Shown: positions 2,311-42,337 of the stretch, piece by piece | How the letters are laid out: each line of letters begins with the position of its first letter | Position numbering within the stretch: the first letter of the stretch is position 1 | Notes under the pieces: model-generated | Told to the model about the DNA's origin: nothing | Database searches by the model: none | Seen by the model: the letters and a program-made list of their open reading frames with translations, nothing else | Assembly (NCBI RefSeq): GCF_009708215.1 | Contig: NZ_CP046175.1 | Location: forward strand, 1,860,001-1,924,000 | Length of the DNA stretch: 64,000 bases | Origin: Occultella kanbiaonis | GTDB lineage: Bacteria; Actinomycetota; Actinomycetes; Actinomycetales; Beutenbergiaceae | Reading direction: 5' to 3' | Program-made: the position numbers and the translations under genes

Positions 2311-3333
2311 ATGCTGCCCCTGAAGCTCGGTTACAAGGCCTCGGCCGAACAGTTCGCCCCGCGGGAGCTGGTCGAGCTCGCGGTCGCCGCGGAGGCGCAC
2401 GGGATGGAGAGCGTCGCCGTCAGCGACCACTTCCAGCCGTGGCGCCACGACGGCGGGCACGCCCCGTTCTCGCTCGCGTGGATGGCGGCCGTCGGTGAGC
2501 GGACCTCCACCGTGCAGATCGGCACGTCCGTGCTCACCCCGACGTTCCGGTACAACCCCGCCGTGATCGCGCAGGCGTTCGCGACCATGGGGGTGCTCTA
2601 CCCGGGCCGGATCATGCTCGGCGTCGGCTCCGGTGAGGCGCTGAACGAGATCGCCACCGGCTTCCGCGGCGCCGGCGAGCAGGACTGGCCGGAGTTCAAG
2701 GAGCGGTTCGCCCGGCTGCGCGAGGCGGTCCGCCTGATGCGCGAGCTGTGGTCCTCCGACCGGGTCGACTTCGAGGGCGAATACTACTCCACGCATGGGG
2801 CGAGCATCTACGACCGGCCCGACGGCGGCATCCCCGTCTACATCGCGGCCGGCGGCCCGATGGTGGCCCGGTACGTGGGCCGCGCCGGGGACGGGTTCAT
2901 CTGCACCTCGGGCAAGGGCTGGGACCTGTACACCGAGAAGCTCATCCCGGCGGTCGCCGAGGGCGCGGCGAAGGCCGAGCGGGACCCGGAGACGATCGAC
3001 CGGATGATCGAGATCAAGATCTCCTACGACACCGACCCCGAGGCGGCGCTGGAGAACACCCGGTTCTGGTCGCCGCTGTCGCTGAGCGCGGAGCAGAAGC
3101 ACTCGATCCACGACCCCATCGAGATGGAGCGGGCTGCGGACGCCCTGCCGATCGAGACGATCGCCGGCCGGTGGATCGTGGCCTCCGACCCGGACGAGGC
3201 GGCCGAGAAGGTGCTCGAGTACCGCCGGGCCGGGTTCAACCACCTCGTCTTCCACGCGCCCGGCCACGACCAGCGCCGGTTCCTGGATCTGTTCGAGCGA
3301 GACCTCGCGCCGCGGCTGCGCGCGCACGGCTGA
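2311..3333 (+). CDS. fgd: F420-dependent glucose-6-phosphate dehydrogenase
   Basis: Encodes 340 residues. It follows the mycobacterial Fgd1 sequence closely over its whole length: [20 protein letters not shown] at the start, the SDHFQPWRH segment, the [14 protein letters not shown] strand, [11 protein letters not shown], and [11 protein letters not shown] near the end. It oxidises glucose-6-phosphate to 6-phosphogluconolactone and reduces F420 to F420H2, so it is the probable source of reduced F420 for the other F420 enzymes in the window. The ATG at 2311 has a good site, CGGAGGAA, at 2297-2304. A -10 element TACGTT at 2270-2275 gives a short leader. Confidence 0.95.
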
Positions 3334-4197: not shown

Positions 4198-4629
4198 TCA
4201 GCGGATCTTCGCCCCGTACACCCGCTCGACCTTCATCGTCATCAGCACCCGGCGGTCGGAGACCATGACCGCGCGGTACTCCGCCCAGTCCGGGTGCTCC
4301 CCGGCCGCGCGCCGGTAGTAGTCCACGAGCGCCTCGACCTCGGCTCCGTTCTGGTCGGTGCCGGGTCCGGTCAGGGTCACCGGGCCCTCGGCGGTCGCCC
4401 ACTCCCAGCCGTCCGCACTGGTCACCTCGAGCGCGGCCCGGGGATCGCGGCGCAGGTTCACCGTCTTCGCACGGCCCTCGGTCATCGAGACGAGCAACTG
4501 CTCGGTGTCGCGGTCGTAGAACGGGGTCACCGGCGAGAGTTGGGGCAGGCCGTTCGCCTTGATCGTGGCGAGGACGCCGATCTTGGCGGCGGAGAGCACG
4601 GTGCGGGGATCGAACGTGGTGTCGGTCAT
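4198..4629 (-). CDS. PPOX-class F420-dependent oxidoreductase
   Basis: Encodes 143 residues of the split beta-barrel flavin/deazaflavin fold related to pyridoxamine-phosphate oxidase, in the size range of the Rv1155-like subgroup. Visible markers are the N-terminal LATIKANGLPQLSPVTPFYD strand pair, RAKTVNLRRDPRAALEV, and EYRAVMVSDRRVLMTMKVERVYG at the end. Many members of the subgroup bind F420, which fits fgd 2 kb away, but FMN binding cannot be excluded. It follows the RNA ligase-like gene on the same strand with a 28-base gap and converges on the chelatase gene. Confidence 0.8.
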   Translation of the reverse strand: MTDTTFDPRTVLSAAKIGVLATIKANGLPQLSPVTPFYDRDTEQLLVSMTEGRAKTVNLRRDPRAALEVTSADGWEWATAEGPVTLTGPGTDQNGAEVEALVDYYRRAAGEHPDWAEYRAVMVSDRRVLMTMKVERVYGAKIR

Positions 4630-9212: not shown

Positions 9213-9280
9213 TCCGCGAAAGCGCAAGCGCACCCCGAATCCCATCGATTTGGTGCGGCTCTAGACGTTCTTGCTCACGT

Positions 9281-9300
9281 GTGCGAAACTGCTTTCGCAC
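9281..9300. promoter_or_regulatory. perfect palindromic operator (LacI-like) upstream of the secreted hydrolase
   Basis: GTGCGAAA-CTGC-TTTCGCAC has perfect 8-bp arms and lies 61 bases before the hydrolase start. Palindromes of this GCGAAA/TTTCGC form are typical of LacI-family repressors that control polysaccharide-degrading enzymes. No LacI gene is in the window. Confidence 0.55.
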
Positions 9301-9360
9301 CGACCCCGACCAGCGATTCCGGTCACCCGACGCTCACCGATGAGATCGAGGCCAGGCAAC

Positions 9361-26686: not shown

Positions 26687-27622
26687 ATGGCGGGAGGGTT
26701 GCGGATGCGCCGCGCCATCGTCGGGCTGACCCTTGCGATCGTCGTGGCGCTCGCGGGCTGTGCCGCCGAACAGACCCTCCCACCGGAGGAACCGATCACG
26801 CCCGCAGCACCCCAGGAGACCGAACCCACGCCCGAGGACGGACAGGGCGGCAGACCGGGGGACCCGCCGTCGTCCACCGCGCCCGGCGGCAGCGACAACC
26901 CGGCGCCGGGACCGACGTCCACAGACCCGGACAGGTCCGACCCGAGCGACCCGGCCACACCGCGCACGCCGGACCCGACCACCTCCGACCCGGGCGCCGA
27001 GACGCCCACGTCGGGCCCGACCACGTCCGATCCGACGACGTCGCCCTCGCCGGAGCCGACCGACCCACCCACCGACCCGGGAGCCACCCCGGAGCCGGCA
27101 CCGCCCACGCTGCTGCGGCCGCCGCCGGGCTATGCCCGGGGCGATGGCGCCGTGACCGCGGACGGTTGGACCGAGGTCCTGGTCGGCCGGTGCACCTACC
27201 TGACCCGCGCGAGTGCGGGCGAGGACCCGGTGAACCCGCGTGAGGCAGGCAATGCCCGTGAACTGTCCGCGACGACCCTCACCGGGCACCTGGCCGCGGA
27301 CGGTGGCGCCGGAGCCACGGCTGCGACCGACCTCGCCCTCTACAACGGCGCCGCTGCCGACGCCGACCAGCAGGACCGGACCAACCTGCTCACGTCCGAC
27401 TGGACGAACGCCGAGGGGTCGGTCGTGCGCGGCGCCGCCCGTACCGAGGTGATGCTGGACCACTGGGGCACCGCCTACCTGGACACCATCGAACTGCGGT
27501 TCGTGTGCCCGGACGGCACCGTCGACGAGGACGGCTGGGCCGAGCTCTGGCCACAGGTGCGGGTCGCGAACCCGGCCCATGAGCGCCCGGGCGAGTGGTC
27601 GCCGGCGCCGGCGACCGACTAG
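26687..27622 (+). CDS. lipoprotein with long Pro/Thr/Ser-rich linker, function unknown
   Basis: Encodes 311 residues. A lipoprotein signal (RRAIVGLTLAIVVALAGC) is followed by about 100 residues made mostly of Pro, Thr, Ser, Asp and Gly, a spacer that would hold the C-terminal domain away from the membrane. The C-terminal 150 residues (from GYARGDGAVTADGWTEVLVG) have a compact beta-rich look with Cys residues at RCTYL and RFVCPDG that may pair. I do not recognise the domain. The ATG at 26687 has GAGGGGAAG just upstream. Confidence 0.7.
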   Translation: MAGGLRMRRAIVGLTLAIVVALAGCAAEQTLPPEEPITPAAPQETEPTPEDGQGGRPGDPPSSTAPGGSDNPAPGPTSTDPDRSDPSDPATPRTPDPTTSDPGAETPTSGPTTSDPTTSPSPEPTDPPTDPGATPEPAPPTLLRPPPGYARGDGAVTADGWTEVLVGRCTYLTRASAGEDPVNPREAGNARELSATTLTGHLAADGGAGATAATDLALYNGAAADADQQDRTNLLTSDWTNAEGSVVRGAARTEVMLDHWGTAYLDTIELRFVCPDGTVDEDGWAELWPQVRVANPAHERPGEWSPAPATD

Positions 27623-27647
27623 CTGTAGCCGGGCCGTCGGCACCGCC

Positions 27648-27673
27648 GGTGGCGGGCGTCGACGCCCGCCACC
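27648..27673. terminator. bidirectional terminator hairpin
   Basis: A perfect 26-base palindrome with 13-bp arms (GGTGGCGGGCGTC and its complement) lies between the convergent lipoprotein and rpmG genes and can serve both. Confidence 0.6.
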
Positions 27674-27688
27674 CGCGCGGCAGCGCGG

Positions 27689-27859
27689 TCAGCGCGCTTC
27701 GCGGAACTCCACGTGCCGGCGCACCCGTGGGTCGTACTTGCTCAGCACGATCCGGTCGGGATCGTTGCGGCGGCTCTTGGTGGACACGTACTCGTAGCCG
27801 GTACCTGCGGTGGACCGCAGGGTGATCTTCGGCCGCAGGGTCTTGCTGGTCGAGGCCAT
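27689..27859 (-). CDS. rpmG: 50S ribosomal protein L33, zinc-free (C-minus) type
   Basis: Encodes 56 residues: [20 protein letters not shown] followed by [20 protein letters not shown], matching bacterial L33. The CxxC pairs of the zinc-binding form are absent, so this is the C-minus paralogue. In many actinobacteria that form is induced under zinc shortage, replacing the zinc-containing one. A Zur-like box lies 80 bases upstream. AGAAGGAGAAGC precedes the ATG at 27859. Confidence 0.95.
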
Positions 27860-27938
27860 CGATGCTTCTCCTTCTGCGCAGGACTCCCGCGCGCGTGCAT
27901 CCGGCACTGCGCCGGACATTGCGTCAACCCGCGATAGG

Positions 27939-27953
27939 TGAGAATCATTCCCG
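27939..27953. promoter_or_regulatory. Zur-like box upstream of C-minus rpmG
   Basis: TGAGAATCATTCCCG fits the actinobacterial Zur pattern TGAnAATnATTnTCA, with a perfect left half and central ATCAT and two mismatches in the right half. It lies 80 bases upstream of rpmG, whose C-minus form is a classic Zur target. A TTGACG at about 27921-27926 (minus strand) could be the -35 element. Confidence 0.5.
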
Positions 27954-28032
27954 ACAGCGGCGAGGGTTCGTCGGACCTGCGCCTGCCGGCGGGACAACGG
28001 AAAGGGGGGCAACCGTGACCTAGGCTCGCCAC

Positions 28033-29031
28033 ATGACGTTGACCATCGGCTACGCGGCGATGCTCGAGCAGTTCCATCCGACGGACGTACTCGCCCACGC
28101 GGCCCACGCGGAAGCGCACGGGTTCTCCGGGGTGATGGCAGCCGACCACTACCAGCCGTGGGTGCCCGCGCAGGGTCAGGCGTCCTTCGTGTGGAACGTG
28201 CTGGCCGCGCTCGGGGAGCGCACCTCCGGCGACATCGGTCCGGGCGTGAGCACTCCGACGTTCCGGTGGCACCCGGCCATGGTGGCGCAGGCGAGCGCGA
28301 CCCTTGCGGCGATGTATCCGGGGCGGCACTGGCTCGGGATCGGCTCGGGTGAGGCGATCAACGAGCACATCGTCGGCGGGTACTGGCCGGAGGCGCCGGA
28401 GCGGATCAACCGGATGTTCGAGGCCGTGGACATCATCGGCCGGCTGTTCTCGAACTCCCTCGCCGGCCGGGACTACAAGCACAGCGGTGAGTACTTCAAG
28501 CTGGAGTCGACCAGGTTGTGGACGATGCCGGAGGTGGCCCCGGAGATCCTGATCGCGACCGCGGGACCGGTGACCGCACGCCGCGCGGGCAAGCACGCCG
28601 ACGGTCTGATCACCATCGGCGCCCCGGTGGACAAGGTGGCCACCCTGCTCGAGAGGTTCGCGGCCGGTGCGAAGGAGGCCGGCCGGGCACCGGACTCGAT
28701 GACGAAGGTGGTGCGGCTGCACCTGTCCTGGGCGCCGACCGACGAAGAGGCGCTGACGAACGCGATGACCCAGTGGCCGAACGGGGCGATGCGGTTCCCG
28801 AAGGCGGATATCCGGTCCCCGTTCGAGTTCGCCCAGGTGGCGAAGATGGTCCGCCCGGAGGACTTCGAGGGCAGACTCGTGATCTCCGCGGACCCGGACG
28901 TGCACCTGCGCGCGATCCAGGCCTACGCGGACCTAGGATTCGACCGTATCTATCTGCACAACGTCGGCCGTAACCAGACCGAATGGATCGAGACCTTCGG
29001 CCGCGACGTCCTCTCGAAGGTGGTCCACTGA
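28033..29031 (+). CDS. F420-dependent LLM-class oxidoreductase (Fgd-like family)
   Basis: Encodes 332 residues of the luciferase-like TIM-barrel fold, close to the F420-dependent G6PDH-like family: [46 protein letters not shown]. It differs from true Fgd in the substrate-binding segments, so a different substrate is likely. The ATG follows TAGGCT (28021-28026) by six bases, so translation is probably leaderless. cofE begins on the very next base after its stop codon, linking this enzyme to F420 metabolism. Confidence 0.88.
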
Positions 29032-29764
29032 ATGTTGCTCGTCCAAGCGCCCGACGGCGTGGGTGAGGTCACGTCCGGAACCGACCTCGCCGCGCTGCTC
29101 ACCCCGTTCCTGGCGACCCTGACCTGGCCGGACGGCTCGGTCGGGCCGGCCGAGGGGGACATCGTGGTGATCGCCTCCAAGATCGTGGCCAAGTCCGAGG
29201 GCCGGCTCGTGGCCGGCAAGGACCGCGAGGCCGCGATCACCGGAGACGGTGCGCGTGGTCGCCACCCGCGACTACCCGGACGGCTCCACGCTGCGGATCG
29301 TGGAGAACAAGCAGGGGCTGGTGATGGCCGCCGCCGGCGTGGACGCCTCCAACGTGCTGCCCGGCACCGTGCTGCTGCTCCCGGAGGACCCGGATGCCTC
29401 CGCCCGGCGGATCCGACGCGGTCTGAACGCCCGGCTCGGGCTGCGCCCCGGCGTGCTGATCACCGACACGGTCGGACGCCCGTGGCGCCGCGGCATCGCC
29501 GACATCTCCATCGGCGCGGCCGGCATCGACGTCCTGGAGGACCTGCGCGGCCAGCAGGACATGCAGGGCCGGGATCTGCGCGCCAGCGTGATCGCCGTCG
29601 CGGACGAGATCGCGGGCGCCGCCGACCTCGTGCGCGGCAAGGCGAAGGGCCGCCCGTTCGCCGTCGTCCGAGGGCTAGGACACCTGGTCACCCACGAGGA
29701 CGGCGACGGCGCGGCCGTCGCGATCCGCCCGCCCGAGGAGGACATGTTCCGCACCGGCAGCTGA
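29032..29764 (+). pseudogene. cofE: F420-0:gamma-glutamyl ligase, interrupted by a frameshift
   Basis: Two frames together spell a CofE of about 243 residues, the usual length. The first runs from the ATG at 29032 through [20 protein letters not shown] and GKDREAAIT; the second continues from about 29243 with [54 protein letters not shown] and ends EEDMFRTGS. One extra base (or two missing) at 29241-29243 breaks the frame. CofE adds glutamates to F420-0. Everything outside this point is conserved, so a sequencing error or very recent mutation is more likely than old decay. The second frame could start at the GTG at 29249 but would lack the N-terminal third. Confidence 0.85.
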
Positions 29765-29836
29765 CGGCCGCAGCAGTCGCGGGCTTCGCACCGATCCACG
29801 CGTCGGGCCTGCCGACCGCATTAGGATCAGCACCAT

Positions 29837-30376
29837 ATGAGTGCACGAGTCGATTCGGTCCACGTCAGCCCGACCCATAACTTCAGCAAGTCCTCGACGC
29901 CGGCGATCGAACTCGTCGAGGGCGTCGGCGTCCGGGGGGACGCCCATGCGGGTGCCACGGTGAAGCACCGGAGCCGGGTCGCTGCGAACCCCAGCCAGCC
30001 GAACCTGCGCCAGGTGCACCTGATCCACGCCGAACTCCTCGAGGAGCTCGGCGGGGCGGGCCACCGGGTCGCGCCCGGTGAGCTGGGCGAGAACATCACC
30101 ACCGCGGGTATCGAGCTGCTCGAACTGCCGGTCGGTACCCGGCTGCACATCGCCGACGCGGTCATCATCGTGACCGGCCTGCGCAATCCGTGCCAGCAGA
30201 TCAACGACTTCCAGCCCGGACTGCTCAAGAAGGTGCTCCGCAAGGACGACTCCGGGCAGGTGCACAAACTGGCAGGGGTCATGGGGGTCGTGGCGCGCGG
30301 CGGCACGGTCCGTCCCGGGGAAGCGATCGCCGTCGAACTGCCACCGGAGCCCCACTTCGCCCTCACGGGCGTCTAG
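29837..30376 (+). CDS. MOSC domain protein
   Basis: Encodes 179 residues covering a single MOSC domain, the beta-barrel also found at the C-terminus of molybdenum cofactor sulfurases. Typical segments are VRGDAHAGATVKHRSRV, LRQVHLIHAELLEEL, GENITTAGIELLELPVGTRL and the conserved Cys in TGLRNPCQQI. Single-domain members are thought to handle sulfur or molybdopterin-bound groups; the exact role is unknown. A TAGGAT element lies at 29822-29827. The gene stands between cofE and the ASCH-like gene on the same strand. Confidence 0.85.
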   Translation: MSARVDSVHVSPTHNFSKSSTPAIELVEGVGVRGDAHAGATVKHRSRVAANPSQPNLRQVHLIHAELLEELGGAGHRVAPGELGENITTAGIELLELPVGTRLHIADAVIIVTGLRNPCQQINDFQPGLLKKVLRKDDSGQVHKLAGVMGVVARGGTVRPGEAIAVELPPEPHFALTGV

Positions 30377-30429
30377 GACGCGGTGCCGGGGGCACGGCAT
30401 CGACGGCGTGGGCTGGGTAGGTTGAGGTC

Positions 30430-31023
30430 ATGCTGTTCGAGGTACGGTTCCGCGACGGGGTGCAGTCGGGCGCGGTGACGCTCACGTTCCGCCGGTGGAA
30501 ACGCCACCAGGTCCTCGCCGGGAACCGGTACCGGACCATCGTCGGACGCCTCGCCGTCGACGAGGTGTCCGTGGTGGATTCCGCGCAGATCACCGACGCC
30601 GAGGCAGTCCGGGCCGGCTATCCGAACGCGGCCACCCTGGTCGCGGATCTGCGTGGCACGCCGGACCTGCCCACCTATCGGGTCCGGTTCCACCTGGACG
30701 ACGGCCCGGACGAGCGTGCCGACCTGGCCGCCTCCGACCGGCTCGGACCCGATGACGTGGCCGCCATCGCCGCGCGGCTGGACCGACTGGACCGGGCCAG
30801 CAGCCACGGCCCTTGGACGGCGCAGACCCTGGACCTGATCCGCGACCACCCGGCCCGCCGGGCACCGGACCTGGCCGGAATGGTCGGCCGGGAGCGGGAC
30901 CCGTTCAAGCTGGATGTGCGCAAGCTCAAGAACCTCGGCCTCACCCTGAGCCTGCCGGTCGGGTACGAGCTCTCGCCCCGCGGGTGTGCCTATCTGGCCG
31001 CTCGAGCCGCGGAGTCCGGCTAG
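30430..31023 (+). CDS. ASCH/PUA-like domain protein of unknown function
   Basis: Encodes 197 residues. The N-terminal 100 residues (LFEVRFRDGVQSGAVTLTFR, RWKRHQVLAGNRYR, VDEVSVVDSAQITDAEA) have the layout of an ASCH/PUA-like fold, which usually binds nucleic acid. The C-terminal part (TLDLIRDHPARRAPDLAGMV, KLDVRKLKNLGLTLSLPVGY) looks like a winged helix. The ATG follows TAGGTT (30418-30423) by six bases. The stop codon shares the palindrome CTAG with the convergent phospholipase gene. Function unknown. Confidence 0.65.
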   Translation: MLFEVRFRDGVQSGAVTLTFRRWKRHQVLAGNRYRTIVGRLAVDEVSVVDSAQITDAEAVRAGYPNAATLVADLRGTPDLPTYRVRFHLDDGPDERADLAASDRLGPDDVAAIAARLDRLDRASSHGPWTAQTLDLIRDHPARRAPDLAGMVGRERDPFKLDVRKLKNLGLTLSLPVGYELSPRGCAYLAARAAESG

Positions 31024-32309
31024 AGCAGTGGACCGAACGGCCTGGTCAGGTACTCCAGCAGCCGCGTCACCCGGCTCCGCTCGCTCCACTCCTGCGGCGT
31101 CAGTTGGCGCGCGTTCGTCAGGTCCGTCTTGAACACGCGCTCCATCTGCGCCGCGAGCTCGTCGTCGTAGAACTCGAGGTTCACCTCGAAGTTCCCGGTC
31201 ATCGACATCCGGTCGATGTTGGTGGTGCCGATGGTGGACCAGCGGCCGTCGACGGTCATGGTCTTGGCGTGCACCATGGCGCCCTTGAACAGCCAGAGGG
31301 TGACACCCGCCTTGAGGAGGCGGGTGTAGTAGGACCGCGCGGCCCAGTCCGCCAGCACGTGGTTGGAGACCTCCGGGATGAGGACCCGGACGTCCACGCC
31401 GCGGCGAGCGGCCGCGATCAGGGTGGCAAGGATCTCCCGGTCCGGGATGAAGTACGCCTGCGTGATGTACACGTGGGACTCGGCCCGGTCGATCGCCTCC
31501 AGGTACAGGCCTCGCACGGGGAACAGCAGCCGGCTCGGCGCGTTCTGTGCCGCACGGATCCGAGGCTCCCAACCATGCGCACCGGTGTCCGGGAGTTCGG
31601 GGAAGTCCGCCTTGCGGTGGTCGTTCCAGAAGTCGACGAAGGCGTTCTCCAGCTCCCACACCGACGGGCCGTCGACGCGCACGTGGGTGTCGCGCCACTG
31701 GGTCCGGTACAAGGATCCGATGTTGTACCCGCCGACGTAGCCGACGTTGCCGTCCACGACGAGCACCTTGCGGTGATCGAGCCCGGTCTTGCGTACGTTC
31801 ATGGTGAGCATGCCGCCCCGGAACAGCGGGAAACGGAGCGCGTGCAAGGTGGGCAGATCGGGCATCCGGTAGAAACGGGGGTCGACCACCAGGTTCCCGA
31901 ACGTGTCCCAGATCAGGTAGACGTTCACCCCCCGGCGGGCGGCGGCGATCAATGCCTCCTTGAACTGGTGCCCGACCTCGTCGGCCTTCCAGATGTAGGT
32001 CTCGAACAGGATGGTGTGCTTGGCGTTGTTGATCGAGTCGAGCATCGCGTCGAAGACGTCCGCCCCGTAGGTGAACGTCGTCACCTCCGAGTCCGCCACC
32101 GGCATGGTGCGCGGGGCGGTCCGCGGGAACTCCCCGGTCAGTGGGGTGCGCCGCTTGCGCATGTGGTCCACGGTCATCACGGTCACGGCCGCACCGAGGT
32201 GCACCGTCACGGTGGCCGCGATCCACCAGCGCGCCGCTCTGATGAAGGTCTTCAGGCTCGGCCGGGGGATGTCCAGGCGCCAGCGTCGTCCATCCTCGCT
32301 CACAGGCAT
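31020..32309 (-). CDS. phospholipase D / cardiolipin synthase family protein
   Basis: Encodes 429 residues. One membrane segment near residue 28 (RWWIAATVTVHLGAAVTVM) precedes two phospholipase-D domains with complete HKD motifs: DHRKVLVVDGNVGYVGGYN and VHAKTMTVDGRWSTIGTTN. Such proteins join or cleave phosphatidyl groups at the membrane; cardiolipin synthase is the most common role, not proven here. The ATG is seven bases behind TAGGTT (32317-32322, minus strand), so a leaderless mRNA is likely and the longer frame to 32318 (TTG) is not needed. Confidence 0.85.
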   Translation of the reverse strand: MPVSEDGRRWRLDIPRPSLKTFIRAARWWIAATVTVHLGAAVTVMTVDHMRKRRTPLTGEFPRTAPRTMPVADSEVTTFTYGADVFDAMLDSINNAKHTILFETYIWKADEVGHQFKEALIAAARRGVNVYLIWDTFGNLVVDPRFYRMPDLPTLHALRFPLFRGGMLTMNVRKTGLDHRKVLVVDGNVGYVGGYNIGSLYRTQWRDTHVRVDGPSVWELENAFVDFWNDHRKADFPELPDTGAHGWEPRIRAAQNAPSRLLFPVRGLYLEAIDRAESHVYITQAYFIPDREILATLIAAARRGVDVRVLIPEVSNHVLADWAARSYYTRLLKAGVTLWLFKGAMVHAKTMTVDGRWSTIGTTNIDRMSMTGNFEVNLEFYDDELAAQMERVFKTDLTNARQLTPQEWSERSRVTRLLEYLTRPFGPLL

Positions 32310-32319
32310 GCGCCCCAAC

Positions 32320-33177
32320 CTACAGTCGGAAGGGCTCCGCCAGTAGCGCCCGGTCCGTATGAGCGGGGCCGGCGTCGTGCAACGGCGAGAACACCAGCGC
32401 GGACCCGTGCTCGCCGTCGACCCATTCGGCCCGCACGCCGTAGACGGCGGCGATCAGCTCCGGGGTGAGGACCTCCCGCGCCGGCCCGGCGGCAGCCACC
32501 ACGCCGGCGTCCAGGACGAGCACGTCGTCGCACACCGTGGCGGCGTGGGCGAGGTCGTGGATGGCCATCAGCACGCCGGTGCCGGCCGCCGCGACCTCCC
32601 GCACCAGTGCGAGCACCTGCAGCTGGGCGGCGACGTCGAGATGGTTCGTGGGCTCGTCCAGGAGCAGCACCCGGGGGGTCTGGGCCAGGGCACGGGCCAT
32701 CTGCACGCGCTGCTTCTCCCCGCCGGAAAGGGTCGCGAACTCCCGTTCCGCCAGGTCCAGCGCGCCGGTCCGCCGCAGTGAGGTCTCGACCAGTTCGAGG
32801 TCTGCGGCGCTGTCCCCGGAGAAGGCCGGGCGGTGCGGAGTCCGCCCGAGGAGCACCACGTCCCGGACGCGCAGGTCCACCTCGGCGTGCGCCTCCTGCT
32901 CCACGAAGGCCACCCGCCGGGCCCGCTCACGCCGGCTCACCTGTGCCACGTCCCGGCCCATCAGATGCACCTGGCCGCTCGAGGGCGGCAGGGCGCCGAC
33001 GATGAGCCGCAGCAGGGTCGACTTCCCGGATCCGTTCGGGCCGAGCACACCGGTCACCCGCCCGGACCGGACACTCACGTCGACACCGCCGAGGATCTGC
33101 GTCGCGTTGACCCGGTACCGCAGCTCGCTCGTCCACAGGTCCGCGACCGTCACGGCCGGCTCCGTCGCCCCGCTCAC
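32320..33177 (-). CDS. ABC transporter ATP-binding protein, proposed F420-0 importer
   Basis: Encodes 285 residues of the FecE/BtuD type: Walker A GPNGSGKST, signature LSGGEKQRVQMARAL, Walker B VLLLDEPTNHLD and the switch His in MAIHDLAHA. The GTG start at 33177 overlaps the permease stop in a GTGA junction, with GAGGAGGGCGGC as ribosome site. The three-gene set belongs to the siderophore/cobalamin class by fold. Its closeness to cofE and an F420 enzyme matches the families named as proposed F420-0 transporters in TIGRFAM. That substrate is a family-level prediction. Confidence 0.85.
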   Translation of the reverse strand: MSGATEPAVTVADLWTSELRYRVNATQILGGVDVSVRSGRVTGVLGPNGSGKSTLLRLIVGALPPSSGQVHLMGRDVAQVSRRERARRVAFVEQEAHAEVDLRVRDVVLLGRTPHRPAFSGDSAADLELVETSLRRTGALDLAEREFATLSGGEKQRVQMARALAQTPRVLLLDEPTNHLDVAAQLQVLALVREVAAAGTGVLMAIHDLAHAATVCDDVLVLDAGVVAAAGPAREVLTPELIAAVYGVRAEWVDGEHGSALVFSPLHDAGPAHTDRALLAEPFRL

Positions 33178-34337
33178 GCCGCCCTCCTCGAGCGCACCAG
33201 CAGCCAGGCGAACACCGGGGCGCCGATCGCCGCGGTGAGGATGCCCACCGGGACCTCCTGCGGTGCGAACACGGTCCGTGCCGCGGTGTCGGCCCAGATG
33301 AGGAACGTGGCGCCGCCGAACGCTGCGACCGGGAGCAGGCGCAGGTGCCGCCCACCGATCAGGAGCCGCACCACGTGTGGGAGCACGAGACCGACGAAGC
33401 CGATCGCGCCGCTGACGCTGACGAGCGCTCCGGTGAGCAAGGCCGTCAGCGTCAGCAGCACCCACCGGGTGCGCGTCACGTGAACACCGAGGGAAGCCGC
33501 CGCGGCGTCCCCGAACGCGAACGCGTCGAGCGTGCGCCCGAACCCGAGCACGATGAATCCGATCAGCACCGTCGCGATGCCCGCGATCGTGACCGAGGCC
33601 CACGTGCGGCCCGCGAGCGAACCCATCAGCCAGTTGATGATCTCCCGGTACGCGTCGCCGCGTGCGCTCGCGAAGATCGTGAAGGACACCAGCGCTGAGC
33701 AGGCCTGGGCCACCGCGATCCCGGCCAGGATGGTCCGGTTCGGCGTGAGGGCGCCTCCGATCCCGGCGAGGGCGAGGGTGGCGCCGAGCGCGAGCAGGGC
33801 CCCGCCGAAGGCGGCGACGGGCAGCGCCACGCCGAGACCGAGGAGCAGGACCGCGACCGCCCCGAGGGCCGCGCCCGAGGACACTCCGAGCAGGTACGGG
33901 TCCGCGAGCGGGTTGCGCGTGATCGCCTGCATGACCCCGCCGCACAGGGCCAGTCCGGCACCCACGAACGCGCCCGTCGCCAACCGTGGTGCACGCCCGG
34001 CCCACACGATCCCGTCCCGGATCTGGGTGAGCGGATTCGGGGGTACGTCGACGCCAAGTCCGAGCCCGTGCAGCCAGGACAGGACATGGTGCCACGCGGA
34101 CCCCGCGATCTCCGCGACGGTGATCTGAGCCGGACCGATCGTCAGTGACACCAGCAGCGACGCGACCAGGATCCCGACCGCCACGGGTAGCCAGAGCAGC
34201 ACCGACCTGGAGATCGGGGCGCCGGTGCGGCCGGGGCTGCTCGGTGCGGGCGTCCGATCGCCGCGAGCTCGGACGGGGGCAGGCCCGGGGTCCGCGGCGC
34301 CGAGCGCCGGGCCACCGCCGAGGTCGGTGCGGGTCAT
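33174..34337 (-). CDS. FecCD/BtuC-type permease, proposed F420-0 importer
   Basis: Encodes 387 residues with about ten membrane segments. A 45-residue Pro/Gly-rich cytoplasmic N-terminus precedes the usual BtuC-like core: RAPRLATGAFVGAGLALCGG, QAITRNPLADPYLLGVSSGA, GAIGFVGLVLPHVVRLLIGG. It forms the channel with the ATPase whose start overlaps its stop. The ATG overlaps the stop of the binding protein gene in an ATGA junction, so all three subunits are translationally coupled. Confidence 0.88.
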   Translation of the reverse strand: MTRTDLGGGPALGAADPGPAPVRARGDRTPAPSSPGRTGAPISRSVLLWLPVAVGILVASLLVSLTIGPAQITVAEIAGSAWHHVLSWLHGLGLGVDVPPNPLTQIRDGIVWAGRAPRLATGAFVGAGLALCGGVMQAITRNPLADPYLLGVSSGAALGAVAVLLLGLGVALPVAAFGGALLALGATLALAGIGGALTPNRTILAGIAVAQACSALVSFTIFASARGDAYREIINWLMGSLAGRTWASVTIAGIATVLIGFIVLGFGRTLDAFAFGDAAAASLGVHVTRTRWVLLTLTALLTGALVSVSGAIGFVGLVLPHVVRLLIGGRHLRLLPVAAFGGATFLIWADTAARTVFAPQEVPVGILTAAIGAPVFAWLLVRSRRAA

Positions 34338-35359
34338 GATCCGGAGCCCTCCTGCGCCAGCTGCTCCAGCTGCGCGGCGAGGTCTGACGCAGCCGGCACG
34401 CTGCGCACCCCGGCCTCGGTGGCCGGGAAGTCGACGATCAGGTACCGGCCCTCCTGCACGGCGGGAAGCAGCGCCGTCGTCGGGTTCGCCTCGAGCTGAC
34501 CGATCTTGTACTCGGCGGTGTTCCAGGCGGAGTCGACCAGGATGATGACATCCGGCTCGGCGTCCGCGATCGCCTCCCAGGACAGCGAGGACCAGGAGTC
34601 GTGGACGTCGGCGGCGATGTTCTCCACTCCGATCGCGTCCATCAGCATCTGCGGCGCGCCGATGCCGGCGCCGACGTACGGGGTGTCCGAGCCCGAGGAG
34701 TACCAGAGCGCGCTGAGCCCGGCTTCGGACGGCGTCACCTGCGCCAGCTCCGCCTGCTGGGCGGCCACCAGGTCAGCGGCCGCGTCCGGGGCGCCGAGCA
34801 GATCACCGGCCTCGATGATGTCGGCGAACACGCCCTCGAACGTGAGTGGGTCGGGCTGGTAGCCCTCCTCCAGGCACGCGGCCGGGTTCACGTAGGTGGC
34901 CACGCCGAGGTCGGCCAGCGCGGTCCGGTCCCCGGCGGTCTCGGCGCTCAGGTTCGACTCCCACCCGGCGTAGACGAGGTCCGGCTCGGTGCTCAGCACC
35001 ACCTCGGACGACGGCGCCTGCTCGGCGAGCACGGGCACGCCCGCCCCGGCGTCGGCCAGGTCGTCCGGAAGCGGGCCGTCGGCGAAGGCGGTGCCGACGA
35101 GCCGGTCGCCGAGGCCGAGCGCCAGCACCATCTCCGCGGCCGCCGACTTGATGGTCACGATCCGCTGCGGGGGAGCGTCGAGGGTCACCTCGGTGCCGCA
35201 GTTGTCCACCGTGATCGGGTACCCGGCCACGGCCGGCGCGGTGGTTCCCGAGGGGTCGTCGTCGGGTGCGCCGCCGGCGCCGGCCGAGCAGGCAGCCAGC
35301 GCGAGGACGAGCGGAACCGCCGCAACGAGGCGCACGGCGGAGGGTCGAGCAGAGGACAT
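34334..35359 (-). CDS. ABC transporter substrate-binding lipoprotein, proposed F420-0 binder
   Basis: Encodes 341 residues. The signal (RLVAAVPLVLALAAC) has a lipobox LAAC; the mature part is a class III (FecB/BtuF-type) binding protein: NCGTEVTLDAPPQRIVTIKS, VLSTEPDLVYAGWESNLSAE, NPAACLEEGYQPDPLTFEGV, VDSAWNTAEYKIGQLEANPT. These segments fit the family described as the proposed periplasmic F420-0-binding protein. A siderophore or corrinoid ligand is the alternative. The ATG at 35359 has GGAG upstream; the longer frame to 35434 lacks support. Confidence 0.82.
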   Translation of the reverse strand: MSSARPSAVRLVAAVPLVLALAACSAGAGGAPDDDPSGTTAPAVAGYPITVDNCGTEVTLDAPPQRIVTIKSAAAEMVLALGLGDRLVGTAFADGPLPDDLADAGAGVPVLAEQAPSSEVVLSTEPDLVYAGWESNLSAETAGDRTALADLGVATYVNPAACLEEGYQPDPLTFEGVFADIIEAGDLLGAPDAAADLVAAQQAELAQVTPSEAGLSALWYSSGSDTPYVGAGIGAPQMLMDAIGVENIAADVHDSWSSLSWEAIADAEPDVIILVDSAWNTAEYKIGQLEANPTTALLPAVQEGRYLIVDFPATEAGVRSVPAASDLAAQLEQLAQEGSGS

Positions 35360-35468
35360 GGGCAGGCTCCAGCGCAGAGTGGGCGTTCGGGATTGCGCAT
35401 TGGACCCGCCGGCCAGATCGGGCCGGGCTGGCACGGGGCACAGTCAGCCCCGGTGTCCGTCATCTCCC

Positions 35469-35474
35469 ACCCTA
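35469..35474 (-). promoter_or_regulatory. -10 element of the importer operon with structured leader
   Basis: TAGGGT (minus strand) is the best -10 element before the importer operon and implies a leader of about 100 bases. The leader contains CGGGGC-acagtca-GCCCCG, a hairpin at about 35430-35450. No B12 box or other known riboswitch motif was found in it. Confidence 0.4.
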
Positions 35475-35478
35475 CAAC

Positions 35479-35512
35479 GGGAGCCGACCGCGCCCCCGCG
35501 CGGCCGGCTCCC
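35479..35512 (-). terminator. strong terminator hairpin after the anti-sigma gene
   Basis: GGGAGCCG/CGGCTCCC outer arms and CCGCGC/GCGCGG inner arms make a 34-base, nearly perfect stem about 100 bases downstream of the anti-sigma stop codon and just upstream of the importer promoter. Confidence 0.6.
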
Positions 35513-35608
35513 TGTGGCGCCGGATGGCCCTCCCCACTCCGGTGCCCGGACCTGCTCGATCCCGTGTAGACCGGGCCGTCCAAGATCTGTTCGGTTCTGT
35601 GCTCCGGC

Positions 35609-36454
35609 TCAGTCGCTGTCCTCCGGGTCGGCCGTCTCGTCGGAGGTGCTCGGCACCGCGGCCACTTCCCGGGTGGTGCCGTCGCTCGTGGTCACGGTGA
35701 GATCGGTGCTCAGGTCCACGTCGCCCGGGAACCAGACGGCCCACCAGCCGTCGGCGAGGGAGGCATGCGCGAAGCTGCCCGAGTCCGTGTGCACGTCGAC
35801 GGCGGTGACGTCGGTCCCGGCCGTGCCGAACACGTAGGTGATCGCGTCCTCCTCCGAGGCCACGCTCCAGTCGACGCTGTCGTTGAGCACGACTACCGCA
35901 TCCGGTGCGGACGGAGCCACCACCGCGTCCGCGGGAAGAATCGCACCCTGAGCGGTGGTCCGGTCCGGCTCGATGAGGCAGACGCTGTAGGCACTCTCGC
36001 CCTGTGCGCCGACGCCGGAGGAGACGGCGAACGTGTAGTCCCCGCGCTCCTCGGCCAGGTGCAGGGTCAACGGGATCTCGGTCACGTCCACGCCGCCGTC
36101 GTCGGCCGGCTCCTGCAACAGTTCCACGTCGGGGCACTCGGCTGCGCGCTCGGCCGCGACCGGGGCCGTGAGCTCCGTCGGGGTCGGTGTCCAGGAGGCG
36201 TATGCCGGTGGCTGGTCCGGATTCGCAACCGTGTACACCGCGGCACCGAGGAGGATCGCTGCTGCTGCTCCGGCCACGACCCGCCGGGTGGTGCGGGGGA
36301 CCGGCCGCGGCGCGAGGTCCGGCATCTCCTCCGGCGCATCCGCGATCGCCAGCCGCACCCGCGCCAGCAGTGCCTCGCTGTCCACCGGATCCGGATTGGC
36401 CTGCGGGTCCAACTGTTGCACCGCCCGCAGCAGTGTCGAGTTGCGATCGGTCAT
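35609..36454 (-). CDS. putative anti-sigma factor, single-pass membrane protein
   Basis: Encodes 281 residues. A cytoplasmic N-terminus of about 58 residues (TLLRAVQQLDPQANPDPVDS, LARVRLAIADAPEEM) is followed by one membrane segment (RVVAGAAAAILLGAAVYTVA) and an extracytoplasmic beta-rich domain of about 200 residues. The ATG overlaps the sigma gene stop in ATGA. Position and topology argue for an anti-sigma factor that senses an envelope signal; no zinc-binding HxxxCxxC motif is present, so it is not of the ZAS type. Identity is inferred from context. Confidence 0.65.
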   Translation of the reverse strand: MTDRNSTLLRAVQQLDPQANPDPVDSEALLARVRLAIADAPEEMPDLAPRPVPRTTRRVVAGAAAAILLGAAVYTVANPDQPPAYASWTPTPTELTAPVAAERAAECPDVELLQEPADDGGVDVTEIPLTLHLAEERGDYTFAVSSGVGAQGESAYSVCLIEPDRTTAQGAILPADAVVAPSAPDAVVVLNDSVDWSVASEEDAITYVFGTAGTDVTAVDVHTDSGSFAHASLADGWWAVWFPGDVDLSTDLTVTTSDGTTREVAAVPSTSDETADPEDSD

Positions 36455-36993
36455 GACTGGCTCCCCTGTGCCTGGCGCCGCGGGCCCGACCCTGAGGATC
36501 CGGTCCCGGTGCGTTCCAATAGATGCAGGAGACGGCGGCGAGCCCTGAACAGTCGCACGGCGAACGCGCTCTTGGTGCACCCCAGCACCGTGGCGGCCTC
36601 GTTGTTGCTGAGGTCATCCCATGCGGTGAGCGCGATGACCTCCTGCTCGGAGTCGGTCAACAGATTCCAGGCCCGGACCAGGTCCGCACGGCTGGCGATC
36701 GACACCGAAAGGTCGTGCTGCGCCTCCGGCGGCTCCTGCTCGAGCCGGATCCGGAGTGCCTGTTGTCTGCTGTCCGCCCGCACATAGTTCCGGATCGAAT
36801 TCCGGGCGACGCCGAACAGCCACGGTCGCGCTTCCATCGGCACCTCCTCGATCCGTCGCCACGTGACCACGAACGTCTCGGCCAGAATGTCTTCCGCGAC
36901 GTTCGGCGAGGTGCGACGGCGGATGAAGGCCAACAGCTCCTGGTGGTGAGTCCAGTACAAGGACTCGAACCGTTCCTCCGGCGTGGCCTTCAT
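36451..36993 (-). CDS. ECF-type RNA polymerase sigma factor
   Basis: Encodes 180 residues with sigma region 2 (FESLYWTHHQELLAFIRRRT, DILAETFVVTWRRIEEV, RPWLFGVARNSIRNYVR) and region 4 (LTDSEQEVIALTAWDDLSNN, AATVLGCTKSAFAVRLFRAR). It would direct RNA polymerase to a small regulon. GGAGAGGGTGG precedes the ATG. It is co-translated with the putative anti-sigma factor and is divergent from a secreted protein gene that may be a target. Confidence 0.92.
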   Translation of the reverse strand: MKATPEERFESLYWTHHQELLAFIRRRTSPNVAEDILAETFVVTWRRIEEVPMEARPWLFGVARNSIRNYVRADSRQQALRIRLEQEPPEAQHDLSVSIASRADLVRAWNLLTDSEQEVIALTAWDDLSNNEAATVLGCTKSAFAVRLFRARRRLLHLLERTGTGSSGSGPRRQAQGSQS

Positions 36994-37052
36994 CCACCCT
37001 CTCCCCGTCCCCTACACCTTGATATGTCCGGCACCCCAGGGGTGATTACATA

Positions 37053-37068
37053 CGTGATGTGTGTCACG
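37053..37068. promoter_or_regulatory. CRP/GlxR-like binding site
   Basis: CGTGATGTGTGTCACG fits nGTGA-N6-TCACn, the core of CRP and GlxR sites. It lies 60 bases upstream of the sigma factor start and 63 bases upstream of the secreted protein start, so it could control either or both. Confidence 0.45.
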
Positions 37069-37130
37069 ATCGTGCGGGTAAGGCTTTAGTCGAACTGACC
37101 CCGGTCGAGCGACCGGCGAAGGGGGAGTAC

Positions 37131-37859
37131 GTGAGTACCTCACGAATGAAGGCGGCCGTGACCGCGGTCGCCGCTGCGGCAGCCCTGTTGGCCGGCGCGG
37201 TCATGGCGGCACCGGCCTCGGCCGACGTCCAGGTTCTGGAGCCGCAGGCCGGCGACCAGCCGGCCGCCGATGCGACCGACGCGCAGTGGTACGCGTGGGC
37301 GGAGGCGGAGCGGGAGGCAGCGCGCGCCACCGATTGGGCAGCGGATGCCGCCCAGCGCGGCTGCACGCTGCTCTCGGTAGAGATCACCGACACCACCATG
37401 CCAGACGTCGCCGCCCAGATCGGCGCACCGACCGACGTGTTGCTGCCTGTGGTCGACCGTCAGGAGAACTGCGCCGCCGCGACGAGCAGAACCTTCGGGG
37501 GTTCCGCCACCCAGGGGCTCGCCAGCGCCGAGGCGCACACCCAGCAATTCGGCACGGCCGCAGCCGACTGCACCACGACGAGCGGACCCGGTTCGATCTG
37601 CGTGAGCCGCAGCGGCAACTATGTGGTGAGCAGCTTCGCCTACTACGGCAGCGGCAGCATCTCCGGCTACATCAGCATCTACAAGAGCTGCGGGACCTCC
37701 CCGAAGCTCGTCAGCGGCAGTGTCGCGAGCTACAGCTATGGGACGCAGCGCAGCGTCAGCGTGTACTCGGCGGCTACCTCGAACTACAGCGCCCGATTCT
37801 GGCGGCACGTCGGGCTCGGTCACTACACGAACTGGGGCACCGCCTGCGGTTACCTGTGA
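37131..37859 (+). CDS. secreted cysteine-containing protein of unknown function
   Basis: Encodes 242 residues. A Sec signal peptide (KAAVTAVAAAAALLAGAVMA, cleavage after ASA) is followed by an Ala/Glu-rich helix-prone part with Cys at RGCTLL, QENCAAA and a C-terminal Ser/Tyr/Gly-rich part with Cys at ADCTTT, SICVSR, KSCGTS and TACGYL, which could form three disulfides. I do not recognise the family. The GTG at 37131 has AAGGGGGA upstream; an ATG at 37146 is the alternative. It faces the ECF sigma gene and may belong to its regulon. Confidence 0.65.
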   Translation: MSTSRMKAAVTAVAAAAALLAGAVMAAPASADVQVLEPQAGDQPAADATDAQWYAWAEAEREAARATDWAADAAQRGCTLLSVEITDTTMPDVAAQIGAPTDVLLPVVDRQENCAAATSRTFGGSATQGLASAEAHTQQFGTAAADCTTTSGPGSICVSRSGNYVVSSFAYYGSGSISGYISIYKSCGTSPKLVSGSVASYSYGTQRSVSVYSAATSNYSARFWRHVGLGHYTNWGTACGYL

Positions 37860-37965
37860 CCGCGGCCCTCGCCGGTGGGCGTCGAGTGACGTCCACCGGC
37901 CAGGGTGCGTCCCGTCCCGTGGACGGTGCTACCCCGGCGGCCGTGGCGACGGGCACGATGACGGC

Positions 37966-38751
37966 ATGAGCCAGCCACCGACCACCCGGCCCGACGCACC
38001 GACCGCACCGCGCGCCGTCGTCACCGGCGCCTCCACCGGCATCGGAGCCGCAACGGTGCGCGCGCTACGGGCGGCCGGCTACGCCGTCGTCGCCACCGCC
38101 CGACGTGAGGACCGCCTCGCCCAACTGGCCGCGGAGACCGGCGCCGAGTACGTCGTCGCCGATCTCACCAGGGATGCGGACGTGGCCGCGCTCGTGCACG
38201 CCGTCGCGGCGGGCGGCCGGCTCGACGCCCTCGTGAACAACGCCGGCGGCGCCCGCGGCGCCGACCGGGTCGAGTCCGCCTCCGTGTCGGACTGGGAGGA
38301 GATGTTCCGGATCAACGTCTCCTCGACCCTGCGCGTCACCCAGGCGCTGCTCCCACACCTTCGCGCCGACGGCGGCGGGGACATCCTGCTGCTCACGTCC
38401 ACGGCGGCGCACGGCACCTACCCCGGCGGCGCCGGGTACGTCGCCGCCAAGCACGCCGAGCGGGTCATCGGCAACACCCTGCGCCTCGAGCTGAACGGTG
38501 AGCCGATCCGGGTGATCGAGATCGCCCCCGGCATGGTGCGGACAGAGGAGTTCGCACTGAACCGGCTCGGCGACCCGGCGCGGGCCGCCGCGGTGTACGA
38601 CGGCGTCACGAACCCGCTGCTCGCCGAGGATGTCGCCGATGCCATCACCTGGACCCTGACGCGGCCGCGGCACGTGAACATCGACTCCCTCACCATCCGT
38701 CCGGTCGCCCAGGCCTCGAACACCCAGGTGGCCCGCGGCGTCGGACTCTGA
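37966..38751 (+). CDS. short-chain dehydrogenase/reductase
   Basis: Encodes 261 residues of the classical SDR family: cofactor motif TGASTGIGAAT, the structural NNAGG, the catalytic Ser in LTSTAAH and YVAAKHAERV with the Tyr-x-x-x-Lys pair. The Arg residues in ATARREDRL after strand 2 favour NADP. The closest general type is the YdfG/serine dehydrogenase-like group, but the substrate is unknown. The ATG lies six bases behind a weak CACGAT -10 element with no ribosome site. Confidence 0.88.
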   Translation: MSQPPTTRPDAPTAPRAVVTGASTGIGAATVRALRAAGYAVVATARREDRLAQLAAETGAEYVVADLTRDADVAALVHAVAAGGRLDALVNNAGGARGADRVESASVSDWEEMFRINVSSTLRVTQALLPHLRADGGGDILLLTSTAAHGTYPGGAGYVAAKHAERVIGNTLRLELNGEPIRVIEIAPGMVRTEEFALNRLGDPARAAAVYDGVTNPLLAEDVADAITWTLTRPRHVNIDSLTIRPVAQASNTQVARGVGL

Positions 38752-38852: not shown

Positions 38853-38954
38853 CGAGTGAAACGTCGTCGTAACACGCACGCCTAAGAATGACCAACCACG
38901 AGCCGGGTGTGGGTCGATCGGGCACACATCCGTCTCCTAGACGGGAGCCACAGC

Positions 38955-39803
38955 ATGGCCGTTGTACGCGCTGCGATCACGCAGACGACCTGGACCGGGG
39001 ACAGGGAGTCGATGCTCGACAAGCACGAGCAGTTCGCCCGGGACGCGAAGGAGCAGGGGGCGCAGATCATCTGCTTCCAGGAGCTGTTCTACGGCCCGTA
39101 CTTCGGCATCACCGAGGACCCGAAATACTACGACTACGCCGAGCCCGCGGACGGGCCGATCGTGCAGCGCTTCGCCGCCCTCGCGAAGGAGCTCGGCCTG
39201 GTGATGGTCCTGCCCATCTACGAGGAGGAGCAGCCCGGCGTCTACTACAACACCGCGGTCGTGGTCGACGCCGACGGCGCCGTCCTCGGCTCCTACCGCA
39301 AGCACCACATCCCGAACCTGGACAAGTTCTGGGAGAAGTTCTACTTCCGTCCCGGCAACCTCGGCTATCCGGTGTTCAAGACCGCGGTGGGCCCCGTCGG
39401 GGTGTACATCTGCTACGACCGGCACTTCCCCGAGGGCTGGCGCGAGCTCGGCCTGAACGGCGCGCAGATCGTGTTCAACCCGAACGCCACCAAGCCCGGC
39501 CTGTCCAACCGGCTGTGGGAGATCGAGCAGCCCGCCGCGGCGGCCGCGAACGGCTACTTCGTGGCGGCGCCGAACCGGGTGGGCACCGAGGACAACGAGT
39601 ACGGGGACCTGGCCGTCACGTTCTACGGCTCCAGCCAGTTCGTGGACCCCCGTGGCAACCACATCGGCGACCTGGGCTCGTCCGAGCACGAGGAGATCGT
39701 GATCCGCGACCTCGACCTGGACCTGATCCGGCAGGTGCGCAACGAGTGGCAGTTCTACCGGGATCGCCGCCCGGACTCCTACACCGCGATCCCCAAGCCC
39801 TGA
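38955..39803 (+). CDS. nitrilase-family amidohydrolase (beta-ureidopropionase-like)
   Basis: Encodes 282 residues with the complete carbon-nitrogen hydrolase triad: Glu43 in CFQELFYGPYF, Lys116 in YRKHHIPNLDKFWEK and Cys153 in YICYDRHFPEGWR. It follows N-carbamoyl-beta-alanine/N-carbamoylputrescine amidohydrolases and, beside dihydropyrimidinase, most likely converts N-carbamoyl-beta-amino acids to beta-amino acid, CO2 and ammonia. The ATG at 38955 is preceded by ACGGGAGCC; the frame is open to 38907. First gene of the operon. Confidence 0.88.
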   Translation: MAVVRAAITQTTWTGDRESMLDKHEQFARDAKEQGAQIICFQELFYGPYFGITEDPKYYDYAEPADGPIVQRFAALAKELGLVMVLPIYEEEQPGVYYNTAVVVDADGAVLGSYRKHHIPNLDKFWEKFYFRPGNLGYPVFKTAVGPVGVYICYDRHFPEGWRELGLNGAQIVFNPNATKPGLSNRLWEIEQPAAAAANGYFVAAPNRVGTEDNEYGDLAVTFYGSSQFVDPRGNHIGDLGSSEHEEIVIRDLDLDLIRQVRNEWQFYRDRRPDSYTAIPKP

Positions 39804-39826
39804 CCCGGATCCGAGAGGAGCACACC

Positions 39827-41248: not shown

Positions 41249-41268
41249 CCCCTCGCGAAGGAGCGCAC

Positions 41269-42306
41269 ATGGATCTCGGCATCGTCCTGCAGACCAACCC
41301 GCCCGCCTCGCGCGTGGTCGAGCTGACCGTGGCCGCGGAGGAGGCCGGCTTCTCCCACGTGTGGACGTTCGACTCGCACGTGCTCTGGGAGGAACCGTTC
41401 GTCATCTACTCCGCGATGCTCGCTCGCACGCAGCGGGTGATCGTCGGCCCGATGGTGACGAACCCGGCGACCCGGGACTGGAGCGTCCTGGCGTCGATGT
41501 TCGCGACCCTGAACGAGATGTACGGCAACCGCACCATCTGCGGGATCGGGCGCGGGGACTCGGCCGTGCGGGTGCAGGGCGGCAGGCCGACCACCCTCGC
41601 CAGCCTGCGGGAGTCGGTCGGGGTGATCCGCGAGCTCGCGAACGGACGCGAGGCGACCGTGGGTGAGAAGACGGTACGGATCCCCTGGATCACCTCCTCC
41701 GAGCTCGAGGTGTGGGTGGCCGCGTACGGCCCGAAGGCGCTCGCCCTGGCCGGGGAGGTCGGGGACGGGTTCATCCTGCAGCTCGCCGACCCGGAGATCG
41801 CGTCGTGGATGATCACGGCGGTCCGAGCCGCCGCCGAGGCGGTGGGCCGGGATCCCGCGGACATCACGTTCTGCGTGGCTGCACCCGCGTACGTGGTGCC
41901 CGACGGCGGCGCCGAGGCTCGGGCGCACGCGCTGGAGCAGTGCCGGTGGTTCGGTGGGATGGTCGGCAACCACGTCGCCGACATCGTCGCTCGCTACGGC
42001 GCCGGCGACGGCAGCACCGACGGTGCCGGGGTGGTGCCGCAGGCACTCACGGACTACATCAAGGGCCGGGAGGGCTACGACTACGCCGAGCACGGCCGGG
42101 CCGGGAACACCCACACGCAGTTCGTGCCGGACGAGATCGTGGAGCGGTTCTGCATCATCGGCACCCCGGACGAGCACATCGCCAAACTTGAGGCGCTGGC
42201 CGATCTCGGGGTGGACCAGTTCAGCGCCTACCTCCAGCACGACGCCATCGACGCCACGCTGGCCGCCTACGGCCAGCACGTGATCGACGCCTTCGCCACG
42301 GCATGA
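41269..42306 (+). CDS. F420-dependent LLM-class oxidoreductase of the pyrimidine operon
   Basis: Encodes 345 residues, luciferase-like TIM barrel: LGIVLQTNPPASRVVELTVA, SHVWTFDSHVLWEEPFVIYS, MVTNPATRDWSVLASMFATL, GIGRGDSAVRVQGGRP. It fits a subgroup of predicted F420-dependent LLM proteins that is repeatedly found beside dihydropyrimidinases. No dihydropyrimidine dehydrogenase is encoded here, so it may perform the ring reduction (or an oxidative opening, as the LLM enzyme RutA does). That role is inferred. GAAGGAG lies upstream of the ATG at 41269. Confidence 0.85.
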   Translation: MDLGIVLQTNPPASRVVELTVAAEEAGFSHVWTFDSHVLWEEPFVIYSAMLARTQRVIVGPMVTNPATRDWSVLASMFATLNEMYGNRTICGIGRGDSAVRVQGGRPTTLASLRESVGVIRELANGREATVGEKTVRIPWITSSELEVWVAAYGPKALALAGEVGDGFILQLADPEIASWMITAVRAAAEAVGRDPADITFCVAAPAYVVPDGGAEARAHALEQCRWFGGMVGNHVADIVARYGAGDGSTDGAGVVPQALTDYIKGREGYDYAEHGRAGNTHTQFVPDEIVERFCIIGTPDEHIAKLEALADLGVDQFSAYLQHDAIDATLAAYGQHVIDAFATA

Positions 42307-42337
42307 GCGCACCGGTCGCGATCGGGCGGGGTCGCCG

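Follow-up and report, generated by a model that had tools for sequence, protein, structure and literature searches.

We analysed a 64,000-nucleotide stretch of the Occultella kanbiaonis genome (contig NZ_CP046175.1, positions 1,860,001 to 1,924,000; hereafter the window) carrying an ATP-binding cassette (ABC) importer of the family named putative F420-0 transporter, and propose that the cargo of this importer is probably FO, the deazaflavin core released by producers of cofactor F420, also in those relatives which bear cofC and cofD. Genome context favours FO over F420-0 as the compound taken up in 27 of 48 importer genomes, this strain among them, although cargo, direction of transport and enzyme activities are all predicted from sequence and FO need not be the only cargo. 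A preliminary description of this DNA had proposed that the organism imports F420-0 and only adds glutamates to it. Its salvage idea stands, with the entry of the cofactor probably placed one step earlier.

The importer is encoded by three genes on the minus strand:

32320..33177, minus strand, importer ATPase; best family TIGR03873 at 331.4 bits, below the cut-off of 372.4
33174..34337, minus strand, importer permease of the BtuC/FecCD type; TIGR03869, 465.6 bits (cut-off 437.35)
34337..35359, minus strand, importer substrate-binding lipoprotein; TIGR03868, 458.3 bits (cut-off 392.4)

The binding protein and permease genes overlap by 1 nt and the permease and ATPase genes by 4 nt, and the ATG start of the binding protein, chosen by eye, leads to a lipobox (LAAC), also recognised by eye. 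Two of the three proteins pass the cut-offs of the NCBIfam putative F420-0 ABC transporter (TIGR03868, TIGR03869, TIGR03873), as had been anticipated, while the ATPase has the third model as its best family but falls short of it. By these profiles, the locus truly belongs to a known family of transporters, whose transport function is predicted. It also lies near cofE and an enzyme of the luciferase-like monooxygenase (LLM) class, as in that family. The family name presumably rests on hosts which lack F420-0 synthesis except for CofE, and it is here that our case differs, CofC and CofD being present in 27 of the 48 importer genomes, this one included.

One copy of the binding protein was found over the cut-off in the whole genome. 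The AlphaFold2 model of its binding domain (pLDDT 94.5) has the fold of haem, siderophore and B12 binders, and to that extent an unrelated cargo such as a siderophore, a corrinoid or haem could be imagined. This is very improbable, as the protein remains a long way below the cut-offs that define such families (siderophore EitA model, 120.3 bits, cut-off 640; BtuF, 19.4 bits, cut-off 234), and the importer is nearly exclusive to genomes without CofG but with CofE. The nearest solved structure is 4mlz, a periplasmic binding protein of Jonesia denitrificans (50% identity, TM-score 0.97 to the model), whose title names no function.

The F420 synthesis genes were searched for in the whole genome, which is one contig of 5.65 Mb and 100% complete. 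A single cofD (C1:2606305-2607201; TIGR01819, 300.5-300.8 bits, cut-off 257.45) and a single cofC (C1:2605664-2606239; TIGR03552, 132.6-133.5 bits, cut-off 105) were found over the cut-offs, adjacent to each other at C1:2605664-2607219, outside the window; residues 9-294 of CofD align with the solved LPPG:FO transferase 3c3d at 213.5 bits. No match to the FO synthase models CofG (TIGR03550) or CofH (TIGR03551) was detected in this genome at E 0.001. The CofG search passed its cut-off in 49 of the 198 genomes sampled from the order and detected three archaeal controls, and an assembly gap is an unlikely cause of the missing FO synthase because the genome is a single complete contig. The picture of a host without F420-0 synthesis genes therefore holds for FO synthase and fails for CofC and CofD, and simple import of F420-0 with only glutamates added was set aside for this genome because these two enzymes were found. 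All steps downstream of FO are encoded, the last in a damaged gene, so that FO is what the strain could not make by the known enzymes. FO is accordingly the more economical cargo for a genome which lacks it but holds CofC and CofD.

Sharing the strand of cofD, and lying some 100 bp upstream of it, is a gene of the major facilitator superfamily (MFS); homologues are placed alike in the two congeners, G013 and G175. The MFS-cofD-cofC group (positions 8665-11632 of locus L038, equal to G000:C1:2605664-2608631) was present in the three fetched genomes of the genus. This placement would suit a division of labour within the genus, with the MFS protein importing FO and the ABC importer bringing in F420-0 or longer forms. 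We regard such an arrangement as improbable: tblastn (E 1e-8) found no homologue of the MFS gene in five regions of the related cofD clade (L088, L089, L090, L095, L096), and the family matches of the MFS protein are of general or efflux type and below the NCBIfam cut-offs.

The enzyme for the last step lies within the window:

29032..29764, plus strand, cofE (F420-0:glutamate ligase), frame-split near 29242; TIGR01916 in two pieces

The gene predicted beside the LLM enzyme is there, but not as one open frame. Its N-terminal part lies in an open reading frame at 29032-29880 (TIGR01916, 21.1 bits), and its C-terminal part, at 29249-29764 in another frame, covers profile positions 90-244 and passes the cut-off of 180.65 alone with 184.7 bits; beyond these two pieces, nothing in the genome matches cofE at E 0.001. 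A programmed frameshift was rejected because cofE is a single open frame in both congeners. Against both of them the break near 29242 is visible, and in the aligned parts of the stretch from the LLM gene to the binding protein it is the sole coding frame change which is seen in both comparisons and left unbalanced nearby. The other indels within genes are multiples of three or sum to three nearby, and a further one, relative to G013, precedes the probable start codon of the binding protein. No alignment with G013 was obtained for 30377-31017 and 34200-34356. In this strain cofE looks broken, unless a sequencing error is to blame, which makes the glutamate step doubtful here.

Under the proposed FO uptake, the lipoprotein would bind FO outside the cell, to be carried inside by the permease and ATPase. 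There CofC and CofD, whose genes lie far from the importer, would convert it to F420-0 by attaching the phospholactate side, and an intact CofE would add glutamates for Fgd and other F420 enzymes. With cofE apparently broken, this strain may take the route no further than F420-0.

The distribution of these genes was determined in the order sample (this genome included; counts refer to matches over the cut-off unless said otherwise), in which 48 genomes carry the importer, 84 CofD and 49 CofG. CofG is found in 1 of the 48 importer genomes (G197) and in 48 of the 150 others (p 4e-6, kinship ignored). Among the 84 CofD genomes, the importer accompanies 26 of the 37 without CofG and 1 of the 47 with it (p 5e-12, kinship again ignored). 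CofH exceeds its cut-off in none; G197 alone shows a strong match, at 289 bits, and the rest reach at most 29. G197 (L004, L052, L094) is the sole importer genome of this sample with both a CofG and a CofH match, and it also carries CofC, CofD and CofE. CofE is present in 47 of the 48, the exception (G194) being a genome of 69% completeness. The importer genomes fall into two classes: class A with CofC, CofD and CofE (27 genomes, G197 included), and class B with neither CofC nor CofD (21 genomes, 20 of them with CofE). All 27 class A genomes carry CofC as well as CofD, 26 of them over the cut-off and one (G088) at 97.1 bits, under 105.

CofG was found in none of 28 additional named genomes whose importer locus includes cofD. 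In a sample of 396 genomes from the phylum, three importers (this strain, G021 and G054), 202 CofD and 190 CofG genomes were found; all three importer genomes belong to this order, with CofD present and CofG absent. A wider set of binding proteins scoring 207-266 bits, below the cut-off, occurs elsewhere in the phylum sample (L097-L113), some as tandem pairs (G235, G513).

In many class A genomes cofD is linked to the importer itself. By coordinates it lies less than 10 kb from the binding protein gene in 14 of the 27, and in 12 it adjoins the importer with the same orientation, downstream of the ATPase gene in ten (G063, G139, G158, G130, G060, G084, G145, G173, G028, G125) and upstream of the binding protein gene in two (G153, G021). 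G097, in which cofD faces the ATPase gene and the contig ends inside the permease, was left out of the 12. A 4-nt stop/start overlap joins the ATPase gene to cofD in G063, in G084 and in L162, a named locus of Leifsonia sp. Root4; starts were crudely set at the earliest start codon of each frame.

The binding proteins were compared between the two classes, with residues numbered in the binding domain. A basic residue at 237 is found in 19 of the 21 class B genomes and 2 of the 27 in class A, R67 in 13 versus none, and V241 in 14 versus none. F420-0 has an anionic phospholactate and FO has none, so the extra positive charge of class B fits the expected direction. Position 230 lies just past a strand and 237 in the following helix of the AlphaFold2 model. 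4mlz shows the pattern typical where CofC and CofD are absent, with S230, K237, K239 and R67, whereas our protein has S230, Y237, I239 and Q67, with Q241; it lacks R67, the basic 237 and V241, which are commoner where CofC and CofD are missing, although it stands in a clade rich in such genomes. The hold-out consisted of 72 named genomes, which remained from 80 loci once 8 near-copies of sampled ones were removed, and it kept the association. S230 together with a basic 237 was found in 9 of 15 without CofD versus 4 of 57 with CofD, the latter assigned by genome search in 28 cases and by a cofD match inside the fetched locus in 29. Exceptions were L134, L144, L155, L166, L181 and L185 (no CofD and no pattern; some are metagenome-assembled genomes or fragmented drafts) and L123, L152, L169 and L192 (CofD with the pattern). 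K/R239 failed as a marker (8/36 vs 8/84).

A general deazaflavin importer, which accepts both FO and F420-0 and leaves the use to the host enzymes, is a less likely but credible possibility; it overlaps with the FO reading, and the likelihoods given here are not meant to add up. It would suit the finding of one family with and without CofC and CofD: on the best tree of 48 binding proteins the class must change at least 7 times, well-supported branches forcing 3 of these changes, and a tree of 120 needs 16. Many residues are also invariant across both classes. The residue differences, which track class in two samples, speak against such a general importer, though not significantly once the tree is taken into account.

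The trees also bear on the history of the genus, which was placed in the family Ruaniaceae; the binding domain of its member G013 is identical to that of Occultella glacieicola (L114). The genus belongs to class A but nests in a binding protein group of 12 class B and 3 class A genomes (support 86/74). In a tree of 45 CofD proteins, which covered 25 of the 27 genomes of class A plus 20 others, the CofDs of the genus and of five f9 genomes stand apart from the remaining 37 as a clade of their own with a long branch (100/100), which suggests a transfer; one of the five f9 genomes is Isoptericola sp. BMS4. A lineage which lost cofC-cofD and later regained it from elsewhere would fit these trees. 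Since a regained cofC-cofD without FO synthase pays only if FO enters the cell, such a history would fit FO uptake.

Several observations weigh against FO as the cargo. The 21 class B genomes are unable to turn FO into F420 by the known enzymes, and those with CofE alone are best read as needing F420-0 or a later form. CofD is present in 11 genomes with neither CofG nor the importer, so that the importer is disfavoured as the sole way to FO. No shared transporter candidate was seen near cofD in ten of these regions (L194-L204, with L204 left out), in which the large membrane proteins, by crude gene calls, were glycosyltransferases (8), a DUF2339 protein (1) and an ammonium transporter (1). The cofD-cofC pair stands about 0.7 Mb from the importer in our genome and on other contigs in the two congeners, and our own S230 is the residue commoner in genomes without CofC and CofD. 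After tree correction on 120 proteins, the association of residues with class is a trend only: ten independent pairs gave 3.3 vs 0.6 for basic 237, 3.8 vs 0.4 for S230, 4.5 vs 0 for V241 and 2.0 vs 0 for R67, in the same direction but not significant (median sign-test values 0.375, 0.125, 0.125 and 0.5, respectively). Finally, passages of PMC11917521 describe FO as membrane-permeable, in which case the cell might do without an importer, though one of high affinity could still be of use where outside FO is low.

The class B genomes, the permeability of FO and the 11 CofD genomes with neither CofG nor importer would be expected if the importer carried F420-0 or a short F420, as its name says, with FO diffusing in and CofC and CofD forming a parallel salvage route; the nesting of our binding protein among those of CofE-only genomes agrees with it too. 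We nevertheless consider it unlikely for this strain, in view of cofD, not just cofE, being a same-strand neighbour of the importer in 12 of 27 genomes, the broken cofE, and a binding protein without R67, a basic 237 or V241. For FO uptake, a source outside the cell has been described: according to passages of PMC11917521, which cite a 2002 study, FO occurs at micromolar levels in culture supernatants of F420 producers (Streptomyces flocculus, Mycobacterium smegmatis and Rhodococcus opacus), with values of 2.6, 1.24 and 1.75 micromolar given for three actinobacteria. Literature searches on FO or F420-0 uptake yielded no paper among the matches listed, and the main text of a FEMS review (PMC8498797) contains neither 'salvage' nor 'uptake' and mentions one putative exporter. 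FO fluoresces, so a simple test of FO uptake is possible.

The remaining features of the locus and its surroundings were as follows:

2311..3333, plus strand, Fgd; TIGR03554, 664.4 bits (cut-off 420)
4198..4629, minus strand, F420-dependent PPOX-class oxidoreductase, a source of cofactor demand; TIGR03618, 129 bits (cut-off 79.05)
28033..29031, plus strand, LLM-class oxidoreductase, probable F420 enzyme; over the cut-off of TIGR03557
31020..32318, minus strand, cardiolipin-synthase-like phospholipase D protein; TIGR04265, 256.7 bits, under the cut-off of 290
41269..42306, plus strand, LLM-class F420-dependent oxidoreductase, a source of cofactor demand; TIGR03842, 562.1 bits (cut-off 295.45)

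The F420 users named earlier at 2311, 4629 and 41269 all exceed their cut-offs. The enzyme at 28033 had been called Fgd-like; it is of the LLM class and passes the F420 subfamily model TIGR03557 (277.9 vs 210.4 bits), but not the Fgd model TIGR03554 (206.9 vs 420 bits), the true Fgd being the protein at 2311. Its top score is with TIGR03885, a family named FMN (flavin mononucleotide)-dependent, at 296.8 bits, under the cut-off of 398.7. An LLM homologue adjoins cofE in 36 of the 48 importer loci (counted by eye), and the name of TIGR03885 may merit a re-check. As described previously, the ATG of cofE (29032) is the base directly after the end of the LLM gene (29031). The FecCD-type importer reported beyond cofE is real and tightly coupled, but lies on the opposite strand and converges with the LLM-cofE pair. 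Between them stand a MOSC-domain gene, an unnamed open reading frame and the cardiolipin-synthase-like gene, the last directly downstream of the ATPase gene. Its homologue adjoins the importer in G013, G175, G031, G047, G091, G105, G161 and G189; it is a conserved neighbour in part of the family and unlikely to contribute to uptake. No Rfam match was found within window positions 27000-38000. At 38888-44157 a dihydropyrimidinase-like gene, the TIGR03842 LLM gene (41269) and a permease/ATPase importer follow in succession (by eye), possibly a catabolic operon with an F420 enzyme.

Taken more widely, and more tentatively, as we put this extension at slightly under even chances, the 'F420-0 transporter' family could be mainly an importer of FO. 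FO would then be a shared vitamin, and many members of the order would be FO auxotrophs which lost FO synthase, kept or regained cofC-cofD and obtain FO through this importer; the binding protein would have changed charge as hosts switched between FO and F420-0, and the route may stop at tail-less F420-0 in this strain. If right, the database function moves one pathway step up for about half of the family's members in this order, the actinomycetes which depend on F420 producers become predictable, the position of cofD beside the importer is explained, and a ligand class is suggested for the solved but unassigned protein 4mlz. FO would also join the corrinoids and other exchanged cofactor precursors. 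The closest parallel is found in vitamin auxotrophs which salvage a late precursor, such as corrinoids or the precursors of queuosine and pantothenate: there, as proposed here, the early step is lost, the late enzymes are kept and a dedicated importer is present, the difference being that the compound in the present case would be the deazaflavin FO.

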